From a virus: a stretch of DNA of 20,917 nt. Made by a program: the position numbers and the translations under genes. The stretch lies in the IMG/VR virus record IMGVR_UViG_3300042090_001828, positions 1 to 20,917 of that record; one strand, 5' to 3'. Below are positions 5,966 through 20,001 of this stretch, in pieces; within the stretch, counting starts at the first letter, position 1, and each line of letters begins with the position of its first letter. The notes under the pieces are model-generated. The model was not told the DNA's origin. It was given only the letters and a program-made list of their open reading frames with translations, and did no database searches.

Positions 5966-6349
5966 TTAGATGGATTGTGAAGTCAAACAAGGAGGAATGA
6001 ACACTTCTTTTCCTTCTCGCATCTGCTCTTCAGTTGTCAGGCGAGATTGATTCAGAGATTTATCTCTGCTCCAGTTATTCTGCTGCCGGCGCAATCGCAC
6101 AGTCTCTGCTATTCGTTGCTTTGTAGCCTCTGAATGCTTAGTAACTCCTCCGTGTTGAGTGGAACCCTTTGGTCTAGACAATCTCATTTTCTGTCGTGTT
6201 TCTTCCGGTAGACACTTGTTCCAAAAAGGATGATTTTCACCTCTCACTACCTTGCTGATTCGTTTCCTAACATCTTTGTTAGGTTCTCCACCATCAGCTC
6301 CCTTTGTCATATTGTACCCATCGACAAAAGTTCCAAGTTTCTCATGACA
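5966..6349 (-). pseudogene. 5'-deleted GIY-YIG homing endonuclease remnant (NUMOD3-type C-terminal part)
   Basis: The open frame reads HEKLGTFVDGYNMTKGADGG, then GENHPFWNKCLPEETRQKM and HSEATKQRIAETVRLRR. This is the layout of a GIY-YIG homing endonuclease after its catalytic domain: the 'KLGTFVDGYNMTKGADGG' linker, then NUMOD3-like DNA-binding motifs. The same junction (WIDKLDAFHNGYN) is visible in the intact endonuclease at 19288-20001. A TAA lies immediately upstream, no GIY or YIG motif exists in any frame before it, and the internal ATG (MTKGADGG) has no ribosome-binding site. The catalytic half has therefore been deleted. The remnant overlaps the end of the upstream 506-aa virion gene by 8 nt. 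A short product made from the internal ATG cannot be excluded. Confidence 0.8.
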
Positions 6350-7890: not shown

Positions 7891-8385
7891 TTAGGATTTT
7901 GCCTTGAACCATTCGGGGTGTTTCTTCTTGGCTGGATTAAGGAACTCTGTTTCGTGCTCTTCAGGATGGTAGAATTCCTTCTTCTTGTCCTCAAATTGAG
8001 AGGGCATCCACTTCGTCACCTGTTCCTTGCACTCCAACTCAGCACGCTTCTCGTTAGGGAGCGCGTCATAGTCTTCTTGTGAAATTCCCCAGTGCTCTTC
8101 AGGGAAATCCATCCACTTCCCAGATGGGACCGGGTAAGGATCTCCTGCTTTCATCCAGATCTGGGAGTGCTCCCAGTCACTGAGTACATAGCAAGTGTAC
8201 GTGCCATCGCTGTAGGAAGCCAGAGGCTGAATTGTCTTCTTCAGGAATCCAATCACAGTCCGAACACAGCGGTTGCGAAACTCTTGGACCATCGGGGAGA
8301 AGAATGGATCCACCTTGTGATCCAGCTTGATCTCCTGAATGATCTCTTCCGCCGATTTTGCTTTCTTGAGCAGCCAGGAATTCAT
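7891..8385 (-). CDS. Conserved-looking hypothetical protein (164 aa) in the structural operon
   Basis: I do not recognise this family. From the ATG at 8385 it is a soluble, charged protein: a helical N-terminus (KKAKSAEEIIQEIKLDHKVD), a central beta segment (SDGTYTCYVLSDWEHSQIWM), then an acidic/Lys-rich tail ending KKKHPEWFKAKS. The frame stays open to a TTG at 8448 inside the Hef-like endonuclease gene. The ATG is preferred because an AGAGGG site lies just upstream and after the endonuclease stop. Upstream it is separated from the 353-aa virion gene only by the Hef-like insertion, so before that insertion the two genes were probably adjacent in one operon. A virion or assembly role is possible but unsupported by motifs. 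Confidence 0.55.
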   Translation of the reverse strand: MNSWLLKKAKSAEEIIQEIKLDHKVDPFFSPMVQEFRNRCVRTVIGFLKKTIQPLASYSDGTYTCYVLSDWEHSQIWMKAGDPYPVPSGKWMDFPEEHWGISQEDYDALPNEKRAELECKEQVTKWMPSQFEDKKKEFYHPEEHETEFLNPAKKKHPEWFKAKS

Positions 8386-8410: not shown

Positions 8411-10480
8411 TCATATTGATAGAACGAATCTTTTCTTTCCAATGTCAAATACGCGGTGCCAGCCCTTCTTTGCGGCCTCTTCGATTTCGCTTATTCCAGC
8501 GGGAACTCTGAAAGAGTATTTGGTCTTCCTTTGTTGTCCATCAGAGTAGTAGTACTCAGAGTCGATGATTTTCTCAAACTGAAATCCCAGTTTCTCATAG
8601 AGTTCTCCTGTGTGCCAGCGCAAATCAGCAAAGGTTGTAATCTTGGAATAGTGATGATCTTTCAACCAAGGAATAGCCAATTTCAGAGCCTTCTCATGAG
8701 GATTCCAAGCTCTGTAATTATGATCCCAACAGGCTCGGTGCCACAGAACTTCTCCACTATATCGTTTTTGAAACACCCAAACTCCGATAGTTTGTCCCTG
8801 GTACATCGCTCTGACTGTAGGACATCCTGAAGCTGCTCCTAAGTAGTGATGAGAATCCAAAAACTTTCTAGCATCAGCAGAAGTAAATTCTTCGACAATG
8901 TAATCAGGATCTACTCTCTTACCCTTTGATTCAGTGAGATATGAGAACATATAATCTAGGATTACGCTGGAGTTTTCCCTAATCTCGTCTTCGAATATCT
9001 TCAGTACACGAAATTCTCTTTGGTAGTTTCTGTCTATGTTACAATTAACTGACTGTTTTTGAAGAGGTAAAAAATCAATGATCAAAGAACGCTTGAAATC
9101 ATCCCAGATCCATACTTCTGCCTGCCAGCCACCATCAGTAACTGCCCTCAACTTCTCTACCAGAGTTCCATCTTTAACCCCTGCCATAAACGTGTAAGTG
9201 CTCTTAACCTCGATAATGCGATGCTCTTTGAGAATTGTGATATCAGGATGGTAGACTTTTTGAAGACCATCCTTCGTGTAGGGAAAACTCATAGGAGAAC
9301 GGAAACCAAGATCATCCTCAGTATAAAATAGCAGCAGCTGAAGGATAACTCTGTCCTCGTATCCTTGGTAGTTTACCACTTCTCCTGAAGGAAGAGTAAG
9401 CTGCTTGGTGCGAAATAAAGCTGGAAGAATATTGTTAGTCCACAACTGAGATGACTGAGTGGGGTTTACTACTCCATACCTATCCAGCATAGTGGCTTCA
9501 TACTTTGCTCTTACCACGGAAGAAGATAGTGGAGCACTAGCCAACTCACCGAAGTGATCCTTGATAGTTTGTAACCATTTCCTCCGAACTTCGGGCAACT
9601 TAGAAGGATGGTCGACCCCATTAGTTTTCAAGAAATTTTCTTGCCAGCTGGCAAAGTACTCTGGAGATCCATAGGTTGTACCCTGACTGGCTATCCAGGA
9701 ATTGTATCGCTTTTCGCTGATGCTGGCAACCATTTGAGGATGAGGTACTCCGTACTGAACCAGGCTATTACTTCGACGTTTACTTATCACTTCTGGAGAT
9801 TGAATGGGGTTTTCGAAACCAAACTTCTCCTTGCAAGTGTTGTTCTTGGACTGCTTAACATCTGGTCGTTGTGTCCAATGATTCACTCCATACTCTTCTT
9901 GACACTTCTTCCTCGCAGCATCAAACACTCCGGGAATCTTGGGTCCACATTCTACGCCGTATCGTTCAAGCGTAGTTTGTCTAATCTTGGCTGACAATTC
10001 CGGAGATTGAAGAGCTGACTTGAATCCATGATGTTTGATCATGGTCTCTTCAAATCTGTCTTGGCGCTGTTTTGCTCGGATTGGATCTTGTAGAGTTAGC
10101 TTGCGCGTTGCCATGGATGCTGCCTTTAGTTTCGCAGCAGCTTCAGGACACTTTACTACTCCTTTGGTTATTCTTCCGCATACGGGTCCTGTGGTTTGCA
10201 TGAGAGTAGCCGGTTGGCTACAGCCGTAGCAGAGGAGTTCAGAAAGGTGAGTTGTTGTGGGACAACGCTGAGCAGACTGACTGCAAGATAACAGCCAAGA
10301 GTTCTTTAGAAGAAACTTTGCTGGTCTATTACATCCGAGTTCACATACGGAGACTATCTCGGAGGGTAGCCGGATGAACCAGTCCGATTTGTCTACTAGC
10401 AGTTCGTTAAATAACGAGACACGTATTTCCTTTGGTATCATAAAATGATGATACTGTATGGGAAGTAGAAGAGTTATCAT
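8411..10480 (-). CDS. Hef-like homing endonuclease with PD-(D/E)XK nuclease core (689 aa)
   Basis: Four parts are visible. (1) Residues ~46-111 have two C4 clusters, C46/C50/C66/C73 and C84/C87/C101/C111, probably zinc-binding. (2) Residues ~145-350 have repeated ~25-aa units of the form YGVxxPxQSPEVxxK (for example FGFENPIQSPEV, YGVNHWTQRPDV), likely DNA-binding. (3) Residues ~375-426 have a nuclease core, E375 in YQGYED, then H411-P412-D413 and E424-V-K426, the PD-(D/E)XK signature. (4) Residues ~535-665 have FTSADARKFLDSHHYLG, FADLRWHTGELYEKLGF and a Tyr-rich strand. I associate part 4 with a GNAT-like domain at the C-terminus of Hef-type phage homing endonucleases. It would cut a target site and drive its own spread by recombination. 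The reading frame is complete, but no good ribosome-binding site precedes either Met1 or Met14, so the start is uncertain. The DNA is AT-richer than the flanking virion genes. Confidence 0.8.
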   Translation of the reverse strand: MITLLLPIQYHHFMIPKEIRVSLFNELLVDKSDWFIRLPSEIVSVCELGCNRPAKFLLKNSWLLSCSQSAQRCPTTTHLSELLCYGCSQPATLMQTTGPVCGRITKGVVKCPEAAAKLKAASMATRKLTLQDPIRAKQRQDRFEETMIKHHGFKSALQSPELSAKIRQTTLERYGVECGPKIPGVFDAARKKCQEEYGVNHWTQRPDVKQSKNNTCKEKFGFENPIQSPEVISKRRSNSLVQYGVPHPQMVASISEKRYNSWIASQGTTYGSPEYFASWQENFLKTNGVDHPSKLPEVRRKWLQTIKDHFGELASAPLSSSVVRAKYEATMLDRYGVVNPTQSSQLWTNNILPALFRTKQLTLPSGEVVNYQGYEDRVILQLLLFYTEDDLGFRSPMSFPYTKDGLQKVYHPDITILKEHRIIEVKSTYTFMAGVKDGTLVEKLRAVTDGGWQAEVWIWDDFKRSLIIDFLPLQKQSVNCNIDRNYQREFRVLKIFEDEIRENSSVILDYMFSYLTESKGKRVDPDYIVEEFTSADARKFLDSHHYLGAASGCPTVRAMYQGQTIGVWVFQKRYSGEVLWHRACWDHNYRAWNPHEKALKLAIPWLKDHHYSKITTFADLRWHTGELYEKLGFQFEKIIDSEYYYSDGQQRKTKYSFRVPAGISEIEEAAKKGWHRVFDIGKKRFVLSI

Positions 10481-10499: not shown

Positions 10500-11561
10500 T
10501 TACCCAAGTAACCACCTTTGCTGTCTGAGACCAACAGAGGCTGGTCTGTTCGCTGTGATTAGAGGTGCCCAGGTTTCGAACATTTGAGTGTAGGTTTGTC
10601 CTAAACCTTGGTAGAGATAGGACTTATTGATATCCAGGCTAACACCGTTCAACGAATATCCAAACTCCTCCTCCGCCCACCTAGCACTTTCACCCAACAG
10701 ACATTTGGCCGCCGCGCCGACCGCCGCCGCTTCAGCCCAGTCTTCAGGAATCGAGCGAATGTTGTAGTTGGTGAGAGCCATGGGGTTCCAGGTATTGAGT
10801 TGGGCAATCGTGATCTTCAGCATGAGGGTGATTGTCATGTCGACCCAGATATACCCCACTCTCGAAGTGTATCCTGCTACGATCTTGCTCGGAGTTGGAG
10901 GACGGAAATGGTAGTTTCTATCCGGATTGGTGTCTGAAAGAAGCTCTCTGACACTCATGATCATCTGTGCCGTCTTTTGGTCCATCCCAGGCTTCCGAGC
11001 TACGATCATCGACGGTGCTTCAAAACTGTTGGAAGCGTAGTCTACCACCTGCACGAAGAAGTCTTCAGTCACCACATCAGAAACTAGGACAGGAGTTGAA
11101 GTTGGAGTGAACTGAGCATTGCTCGATTGACCGACCCAGATATCAGTTGAATTTGTGGTCAAGATTTGAGCAGGGGTCAATCCGTTGATCTGCATGCTAC
11201 CAGTGGAAGCCAGCACCATTGTCGCAGAAGCGAGTGTGACATTCTGGATGACAATCTCCCCGGGAATGAACACACCAGAGGTGATTGCTCCTGCTACGTT
11301 GCTGACAGGATACTGAACCAGATTCCATCGCAGTTGATACTCACCTTCCCAGCTGGTCGGGATAGTGATTGGAACATAGTAAGCTCCGATGTTCGTGTTT
11401 CCAGGAGTCTGACTTAACACGACCGGAGAGAACACTCCACTGACATTACTGTAGATGTCATAATTGATGGCGGTCGGATTCATCAGCATTCCATTGGCAT
11501 CATGGATGAGAATGCCCAGATCGCCTGGTCCTAGAGTTTTTCCTTGGGTCAAAGTCTGCAC
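10500..11561 (-). CDS. Virion structural protein, possible head-tail connector/neck component (353 aa)
   Basis: Starts at GTG (MQTLTQGKTLGPGDLG) with a GAGGTG site ~9 nt upstream; this start overlaps the end of the upstream broken endonuclease by 13 nt. Residues ~1-110 look like a beta-sandwich (IGAYYVPITIPTSWEGEYQLRW split over two strands), a fold common at the N-terminus of phage tail and fibre-associated proteins. The C-terminal ~130 residues are mixed alpha/beta with a helical EDWAEAAAVGAAAKCLLGES block and a YLYQGLGQTYTQMFETWAPL stretch that suggests packing within an oligomeric ring. Location at the promoter-proximal end of the late operon fits a connector or neck protein, but that is inference. 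There are no catalytic motifs. Confidence 0.55.
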   Translation of the reverse strand: MQTLTQGKTLGPGDLGILIHDANGMLMNPTAINYDIYSNVSGVFSPVVLSQTPGNTNIGAYYVPITIPTSWEGEYQLRWNLVQYPVSNVAGAITSGVFIPGEIVIQNVTLASATMVLASTGSMQINGLTPAQILTTNSTDIWVGQSSNAQFTPTSTPVLVSDVVTEDFFVQVVDYASNSFEAPSMIVARKPGMDQKTAQMIMSVRELLSDTNPDRNYHFRPPTPSKIVAGYTSRVGYIWVDMTITLMLKITIAQLNTWNPMALTNYNIRSIPEDWAEAAAVGAAAKCLLGESARWAEEEFGYSLNGVSLDINKSYLYQGLGQTYTQMFETWAPLITANRPASVGLRQQRWLLG

Positions 11562-12440
11562 GAACTCACCACCTCACTTAGAACTTGAAAGCCATTCCTT
11601 GGCTTCATTCCTCGTTTCCATCCGTTGGCTTTATATTTCTGCCATTCTTCTTGTTTTATGGCTTTGCTTCCAAGGATTTCATGATGGATTCTTATCCTCC
11701 CCTTGTTTCCTTTTCCCATTGACTGCACCTGATTCAAGTGATCATCTGTTCCAAAGTACGTTTTCCGAAGAATCTCAAGAGTTTTCCTCCGATGTTTCGC
11801 AGCCTCTTCCGTAGCATTCCATATACGAACACTCTGTTTAGATTTCTCAATTCTAAAAGGATGTGAAGCCAGTCTTTCACGATGAGATTTTCCTTCTTCA
11901 CTGTCATTCCAATTCTTCAAATGAGCGATGGCCTCTGCGGATCCCAACCAGTTATCTCGCACATAATCCCATCCTTTAGACATAGCTTTTCTTGTAAACT
12001 GCTTTCCTCTTTCAGTATTGTGCCAAGCAGCAAGCCTTGCCAATTTCTTGGGACTGCGCCTCGAGGCTTGAGCCTTAAGACTATTTCTAACAGAGCCACC
12101 AATCAAAATTCTAGTTTCTTCAGAGTGCTTCCATCCGCTAACTCCTTCTCCTCCATCTGTATGATTAATCAGTATTCCAGTTCCATTATCTTTCCTACCA
12201 TACAAATAAATCAGGTTCATCTCCAGTTGAAGAGCATCCTTCTCATAAAGATTTCCAGCCAAGATCACTATGTTCAAAGGATCAGCTGGAATAGGAGTCT
12301 TCCTGTGATCTTCATACGGACGAAGAATTCCTCCCCTTACCTATGTAGTAAGGAGCTCCCTTTGGTGCCGTTTGAGAATCCTTAGAACGAAGGTATGCGT
12401 ACACGAAAAACTCTTGTTCACCTTGTGTTAGAGCAACCAT
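11549..12440 (-). pseudogene. GIY-YIG homing endonuclease broken by a +1 frameshift
   Basis: From the ATG at 12440 the frame reads ALTQGEQEFFVYAYLRSKD then GAPYYIGKG. The VYAYLR...PYYIGKG pair is a GIY-YIG nuclease start. After GKG the frame runs into TGA. In the next frame the protein continues RPYEDHRKTPIPADPLNIV, LQLEMNLIYLYGRKDNGTG, LINHTDGGEG and a NUMOD-like tail (ILGSKAIKQEEWQKYKANGW, KRGMKP). The locus is 892 nt, exactly one base more than 297 codons. The shift lies in a GGGG run (CCCC on plus, 12333-12336), and removing one G gives GKGGILRPYEDH, which aligns well with intact family members. The 3' end overlaps the GTG start of the 353-aa virion gene by 13 nt. It may be genuine inactivation, or a homopolymer error in an intact ~296-aa gene. 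Confidence 0.8.
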
Positions 12441-19287: not shown

Positions 19288-20001
19288 TCACTCCGTTCTC
19301 TCAATGAACTCAATACCCCACCTATCACACGATTCCTGTGAAAGAAACTGACCCTTAGCTCTTCTAGTCATCATCTGGTTGCGAATACTTTTGCGTTTCT
19401 GTTCAGCTGACATAACATATCCTTTGTGTGATTCACTAATTCTATCAACTGTTTCCTGTGAGGCTTTCTGGCCTATCCTCCGATTTCGAATATCAGCAAT
19501 CTGCTGTTCTGACCAAGGATTTTCTCTTCGTATCCTAGACAACAGTTGCTTTTGCTCAACACTCATAGGTCCTCTTGTCTTGCCTCTCTGTACATCACTA
19601 ATTTTCTTTCTGGAGGCTGCTGTATGACAGTAGTTCCCCCTTCTTCTTCGAGTTTCAACTCTTTTTCGTATTTCTTCTTGAGACTGAACTCTTCCAGCAC
19701 CACTGTACGCCTTAGCTAGACTGTTGTATCCATTGTGGAAAGCATCTAGCTTATCAATCCAGAATTGTTCTCGTTCTTCCAAGTTTGCTCTGTTTGGGTT
19801 AGTGATTTCTTCAAGCACATTCCAATCCCAAACCTCTGGACCATACTTCTTCCAGGAACGAAGCAGCTTTGGGCCGGTGTGACTCCCGTCTTTGAATCCT
19901 TGAATATGAATTTGCCATCTTCCATAAATATCCACAGAACTTCCAACATAGGACTTCTTGGAAATCCGATTGTATATTTGATACACACCAGCAGTCTTCA
20001 C
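19288..20001 (-). CDS. GIY-YIG homing endonuclease, intact (237 aa)
   Basis: The N-terminal nuclease domain shows G5-V-Y7 and Y18-V-G20 (the GIY and YIG positions), then R28 and the EEREQFWID segment (~75-82) carrying the expected metal-binding Glu. After a KLDAFHNGYNSL linker come several NUMOD3-like helical repeats (SQEEIRKRVETRRRR, SRKKISDVQRG, SAEQKRKSIRNQ) that contact DNA. The start is GTG with GGAGGT 9 nt upstream. It sits between the truncated helicase end and that gene's displaced tail, so it is an inserted mobile gene expected to cut a cognate helicase gene lacking the insertion. It is AT-richer than the helicase. The flanks (about 40 nt and about 5 nt) are too short to hold a group I intron core. 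Confidence 0.88.
   Translation of the reverse strand: MKTAGVYQIYNRISKKSYVGSSVDIYGRWQIHIQGFKDGSHTGPKLLRSWKKYGPEVWDWNVLEEITNPNRANLEEREQFWIDKLDAFHNGYNSLAKAYSGAGRVQSQEEIRKRVETRRRRGNYCHTAASRKKISDVQRGKTRGPMSVEQKQLLSRIRRENPWSEQQIADIRNRRIGQKASQETVDRISESHKGYVMSAEQKRKSIRNQMMTRRAKGQFLSQESCDRWGIEFIERTE

Follow-up and report, generated by a model that had tools for sequence, protein, structure and literature searches.

The gene at positions 8411–10480 on the minus strand of the window, the whole 20,917-nucleotide stretch of DNA analysed here, is probably a free-standing homing endonuclease gene that is mobile and belongs to a large tailed phage. Its product appears to be a fusion of a DUF7487-type endonuclease with the C-terminal end of a Hef protein, including a Mom-related tail. 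The protein is composed of modules with different kin, the junction occupied by the gene is filled differently in related phages, and five Mom positions are conserved in the tail. The N-terminal 461 residues would represent a PD-(D/E)XK endonuclease of the DUF7487 type with zinc-cluster and helical-repeat modules. The C-terminal approximately 200 residues would correspond to the last part of an EDxHD Hef protein, including the Mom-related GNAT domain. In the proposed course of homing, the uninterrupted gene junction is recognised by the N-terminal modules and cut by the nuclease core, and the gene is then copied together with flanking DNA during repair from the donor. Most likely, the chimeric product is a working mobile endonuclease, the tail of which would be a Mom-superfamily domain that is conserved and directed at DNA.

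The gene is a single open reading frame that starts with ATG, encodes 689 amino acids and contains no internal stop codon. It is not a chance open reading frame, since its product matches DUF7487 (PF24308) at residues 235–451 with an E-value of 1.5e-50 and a score of 172.6 bits against a curated cutoff of 27. The initial annotation described zinc clusters, YGV repeats, a nuclease core and a tail in one protein, and all of them were recovered. Two four-cysteine clusters, located at residues 46–111 (10148–10345, minus strand), probably bind zinc. The first is formed by C46, C50, C66 and C73 and the second by C84, C87, C101 and C111; most of these cysteines are aligned in the tail-less relative P0008. 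The clusters are followed by about eight helical repeats of the YGV..P type, as in DUF7487, at residues ~133–350 (9431–10084, minus strand), which are likely to bind DNA. The YGV-like repeats start at residues 151, 174, 197, 220, 243, 287, 310 and 335, and some of them are degenerate. The Rfam search over the window gave nothing at the gathering threshold, and hence no group I intron from any described family.

The nuclease core is located at residues 355–461 (9098–9418, minus strand). The residues E375, P412-D413 and E424-x-K426, which had been reported as intact, are all present in the window protein and are conserved in P0008. DUF7487-type proteins were collected by their core (GYE...PD...EVKS) from 75 viral loci, which gave 56 distinct ORFs. 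The loose GYE-type pattern and the ExK pattern are found in all 56 ORFs, and the PD pattern in 52 of the 56. The full-length fold model of the 689-aa protein shows a pLDDT below 50 at residues 366–488, leaving the nuclease core without a confident fold. Since this region did not fold, the PD-(D/E)XK assignment rests on sequence. The comparison of the core profile with solved structures gave no convincing match, and PDB sequence searches with the window protein (P0001) or with A2 returned weak matches only, mostly to acetyltransferases. A TnsA-like endonuclease match was obtained for 9 of the 46 members of alignment A7. We regard the core as DUF7487-type and PD-(D/E)XK-like, and not as the EDxHD nuclease of Hef proteins. 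The EDxHD core is absent from the window protein, in which its C-terminal remnant at residues 488–520 alone is present.

The tail covers residues 524–689 (8414–8911, minus strand). It had been called GNAT-like, and structure prediction agrees with this: the AlphaFold2 model of residues 480–689, obtained with 53 tails, has a GNAT fold with a pLDDT of 92.1 and a pTM of 0.86. The Foldseek search with the tail model returned GNAT enzymes; Mu Mom (8bv8_A) was found at rank 6 and had the top query TM-score, 0.55, among the 50 matches listed. NatA-type GNATs ranked highest in VIA-align (Z 14.3, rmsd 2.4, 132 aligned). The nearest viral models belong to large endonuclease-like proteins, including the homing endonuclease of PA5oct, with a query TM-score of ~0.8. 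The PHROGs search with the 689-aa protein gave a homing endonuclease match at residues 492–686 (E 5.8e-34) and a match to Mom-like DNA modification proteins (E 0.0004). The Pfam match of the same protein to Mom (PF25680) at residues 529–656 has an E-value of 0.0021 and, with a score of 18.2, falls below the gathering score of 27.1. Distant relatedness is nevertheless strong by profile. The comparison of 53 Hef tails with 11 Mom proteins gave 98.5% (E 4e-15, 171 columns), and the tails of the window clade alone gave 95.2% against the Mom family (E 2.9e-8). In alignment A7, which comprises 46 sequences, 18 of them with a tail (17 tails and the window protein), Pfam Mom was matched at an E-value of 0.01 or better in 11 sequences, the best value being 8.9e-11. 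"Mom-related" is a better description of the tail than plain "GNAT-like".

Stronger conservation of the tail than of the core was considered and rejected. Initially, the tail was above the core in 868 of 903 pairs; a tighter core led to near equality, and under core selection the relation was reversed, with the tail above the core in 594 of 2850 pairs. Conservation amounts to 50.3% for the core and 44.4% for the tail in the core-selected set, and to 47–52% and 52%, respectively, in the tail-selected set.

The relatives of the two parts of the protein belong to different endonuclease families. None of the 56 distinct DUF7487-type ORFs has a Mom-like tail, as judged by the length after the core and from six ORFs that were read. 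Most of these ORFs stop 30 to 50 residues past EVKS, and the longer ones that were read are without a Mom-like tail. The EDxHD proteins were gathered by the core alone, leaving the tail unused, from 80 loci that gave 76 distinct ORFs. The Mom-related tail is present in all 76, a count that covers the less distant EDxHD proteins, since the three query cores were taken from tail-bearing Hef proteins. The closest relatives of the window tail come from 14 loci with five distinct tails. All of them have zinc-type repeats and the core LAIEYHGLIWH...IYxDEW, which we take to be the Hef core type named EDxHD. The window tail shares 54% identity with the tail of L003, the core of which is of the EDxHD type by sequence. 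In the tree of 64 tails and the Mom proteins, the window tail is sister to its five tail relatives with support of 100/99; the deeper order in this tree is unsafe because the branches are long.

Ahead of the window tail the stretch FRVLKIFEDEIRENSSVILDYMFSYL is retained, which matches RLIQIYSDEWETKQSIIKAQIQEIL in L003; the joint is therefore placed within about residues 461–490. Comparison with L003, L011, L013, L019, L020 and L023 matches the remnant as a whole, residues 488–520 (FRVLKIFEDEIRENS...; 8921–9019, minus strand), to the C-terminal end of the Hef core of the EDxHD type. Because the stretch preceding the tail matches this end, the protein has the appearance of a fusion between two families. 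The designation "Hef-like" in the initial annotation thus holds for the tail and the short remnant before it and does not hold for the core, which is of the DUF7487 type, whereas all 76 Hef ORFs collected by core have the EDxHD core.

Each half of the protein is known, and it is the pairing of a DUF7487 core with a Hef tail that is unusual. This combination is absent from all other contigs examined (56 and 76 relatives), and the literature search found no paper on it. The plasmid search with the tail gave no match, and the genome-contig scan with A2 revealed no relative among 77 pattern stretches. The fusion could also be an assembly artefact that joined two endonuclease genes of different phages. 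It occurs in one contig only, a 26-mer near the joint has no exact match in the viral contigs searched, and the 20,917 bases of the window come from a metagenomic virus record. However, the reading frame is open across the joint, the joint lies between domains, and the EDxHD remnant keeps the tail's own preceding helix. Furthermore, the tail forms a separate branch in its clade rather than duplicating a known contig. We consider an artefact improbable and prefer a natural fusion.

In the 11 Mom proteins, H58, Y59, E108, D149, Y159 and H183 are invariant, and R111 is nearly so. The residues H545, Y546, R582, D619 and Y628 of the window protein correspond to Mom H58, Y59, R111, D149 and Y159, respectively. 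Mom E108, S124 and H183 are not kept in the window, where L579, E596 and T653 or its neighbour are found instead, and their equivalents are also missing across the window clade. The tail-selected recount, comprising 64 distinct Hef tails from 80 loci, gave H in 64, E in 64, R in 63, D in 59 (N in 5) and Y in 64. The 76 core-selected tails have H in 76, E in 67, R in 76, D in 72 (N in 3, L in 1) and Y in 75. Strict invariance of H, D and Y in Hef tails was rejected, as the search pattern itself had selected these residues and dropped 22 of the 80 loci. The counts imply that the common Hef tail retains more of the Mom site than the window clade does. The earlier suggestion that the tail looks to be under selection is supported. 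The near-invariant Mom active-site positions lend weight to the accompanying idea of a function beyond DNA binding, but they do not prove it.

The retained positions are consistent with an active Mom-type modification domain, in which case the gene would be a mobile element similar to a restriction-modification system, marking the genome it belongs to and cutting DNA that lacks the mark. H58, R111, D149 and Y159 are kept in tails that were collected independently of the tail itself, and all four are present in the window. The high-confidence GNAT model, with Mu Mom as the match of top query TM-score among those listed, points in the same direction, as does an earlier proposal for Mom-nuclease fusions of jumbo phages in the available part of PMC7824862. 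We hold this explanation only tentatively. The window clade is without the equivalents of E108, S124 and H183, and the aspartate is replaced in a few tails of both sets. The DUF7487-type relatives manage without the tail, and homing by itself requires no modification because the insertion destroys the site. According to its PDB title, the 8bv8 structure of Mu Mom is that of S124A, an inactive mutant. The missing S124 is the strongest point against a reaction identical to that of Mom in the window clade.

Three Mom positions are lost in the window clade, among them the serine at which a mutation inactivates Mom. This loss agrees with a catalytically dead Mom fold that only holds DNA and whose conserved residues serve structure or base contacts. 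The fusion of the tail to a nuclease in every Hef collected is likewise what a DNA-binding module would show. Yet near-invariant H, R, D and Y residues shared with the enzyme are hard to square with generic DNA binding. The tail and the core are also about equally conserved. A module that sets target specificity should have diverged further. A dead fold is a plausible explanation, though one given less than an even chance. With respect to the role of the tail itself, non-catalytic binding of DNA or bases is credible without being probable, acyl- or carbamoylmethyl-type base modification may be entertained with reservation, and other roles account for the rest. A broader proposal would be that Hef-type homing endonucleases, including the window fusion, carry a working Mom-like base-modification domain. 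Such a selfish gene would cut unmarked DNA and mark DNA at or near its site, and its tail would be a portable module movable to another nuclease family. We regard this proposal as rather unlikely.

The reading of the gene as a mobile homing endonuclease gene draws on the locus as well. The upstream neighbour (10500–11561, minus strand) encodes a 353-aa protein, the homolog of which in Tunturiibacter phage Tunturi_5 is 46% identical and annotated as a head-tail connector. The downstream neighbour (7891–8385, minus strand) encodes 164 amino acids from an ATG at 8385; a TTG start at 8448 over-extends the gene. Four IMG/VR contigs close to the window, L188–L191, align with it in pieces of 82–99% identity. 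The gene that they have at the same junction encodes 234 amino acids; its product matches a homing endonuclease entry of PHROGs (E 1.8e-25) and, weakly, GIY-YIG, with a score slightly under the Pfam cutoff. In the distant contig L004, the homolog of the 353-aa gene is followed by a gene for a tail-less 389-aa DUF7487-type protein. The 164-aa gene is absent there, and the next gene is a homolog of the window's 506-aa gene. In Tunturi_5 the connector gene is followed by a 57-aa ORF, and no endonuclease is annotated at this place. No empty junction was found among the close relatives.

Compared with L188, the 353-aa gene has 7 differences in its first 840 bp and 42, mostly silent, in its last 222 bp (10500–10721, minus strand), which resemble a co-conversion tract. 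In the 164-aa gene, 6 differences fall within the first 45 bp and 8 within the following 450. The presence of two other endonucleases at the junction in relatives, together with the unusually diverged flanks, supports homing and with it the earlier designation as a homing endonuclease. The flank divergence matches co-conversion beside a cut site and could have arisen by transfer in either direction, the pattern being compatible with either genome as the recipient.

Several endonuclease genes are present in some of the five contigs, L188–L191 and the window, and missing in others, which indicates a phage group with several endonuclease hotspots. At 5966–6310 (minus strand) the window contains a NUMOD3-only remnant of a GIY-YIG homing endonuclease gene that is intact in L188 (8860–9471); about 228 bp with most of the catalytic domain are missing. 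A second endonuclease-like gene at 11549–12400 (minus strand) is frame-shifted near its start and intact, with 296 aa, in L188 (4123–5013); the segment is absent in L189 and L190. The intact copy matches no Pfam family, and its GIY-YIG kinship was judged by eye. An intact gene for a 237-aa GIY-YIG/NUMOD3 homing endonuclease is located at 19288–20001 (minus strand) beside a UvrD-like helicase gene. A split of the UvrD gene at the window end was rejected, as the frame runs off the end. The cultured relative Tunturi_5 suggests an Acidobacteriota host. In L176 (2580–4529), a DUF7487-type core continues in frame through KTYDIQVKDSHHYILKSGIISHNS into unrelated protein sequence; KTYDIQVKDSHHYILKSGIISHNS looks like an intein end, and this locus may encode an intein with a DUF7487-type endonuclease. 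The gene following the L003 Hef gene (L003:6649–7113) contains a GSPQ-type tandem repeat, the copy number of which varies among L001–L003, L002 being longer.

Hef genes are very common in phages, and no settled account of the role of their tail was found in the literature. The window protein represents a natural domain swap, with the same tail on a different nuclease and relatives without the tail at comparable sites, which opens the contribution of the tail to experimental test. If the tail is catalytic, homing and DNA modification are combined in one selfish protein.

In the available part of their paper, Iyer et al. (2021; PMC7824862) predict adenine modification by the Mom domains that are joined to REase-fold nucleases in jumbo phages, and they propose a modification-plus-restriction (RM-like) role for these fusions. 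The statement in the initial annotation that the role of the tail is not established is partly overtaken by this prediction. As in the window, the Mom domain is joined to a nuclease. The fusions are not treated there as homing endonucleases, a term that occurs 0 times in the available text. The RM-like proposal seems to fit the Hef tails generally and is less clear for the window clade. Mu Mom (PF25680, PDB 8bv8) shares with the window tail the GNAT fold and H58, Y59, R111, D149 and Y159. In contrast to Mu Mom, the window tail is fused to a nuclease, has an additional GxxRIxDxG end, is without the E108, S124 and H183 equivalents and scores below the Pfam cutoff. The DUF7487 endonucleases (PF24308; for example, the 389-aa protein of L004, Vibrio phage Va1, SRILMA) have repeats and a GYE...PD...EVKS core like the window protein. 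That of L004 is found at the equivalent junction, behind the same upstream gene. The Mom-like tail distinguishes the window protein from its 56 distinct relatives of this type. The Hef/EDxHD homing endonucleases of large phages (PHROG 3339 and 559; for example, PA5oct, AR9, Campylobacter phage Hef58) share the Mom-related tail with the window protein, including H, R, D, Y and the GxxRIxDxG motif at its end. Their core is EDxHD, whereas the window protein keeps only its last strand and helix and has a cutting core of the DUF7487 type. The Hef gene of PA5oct, like the window gene, sits between structural genes.
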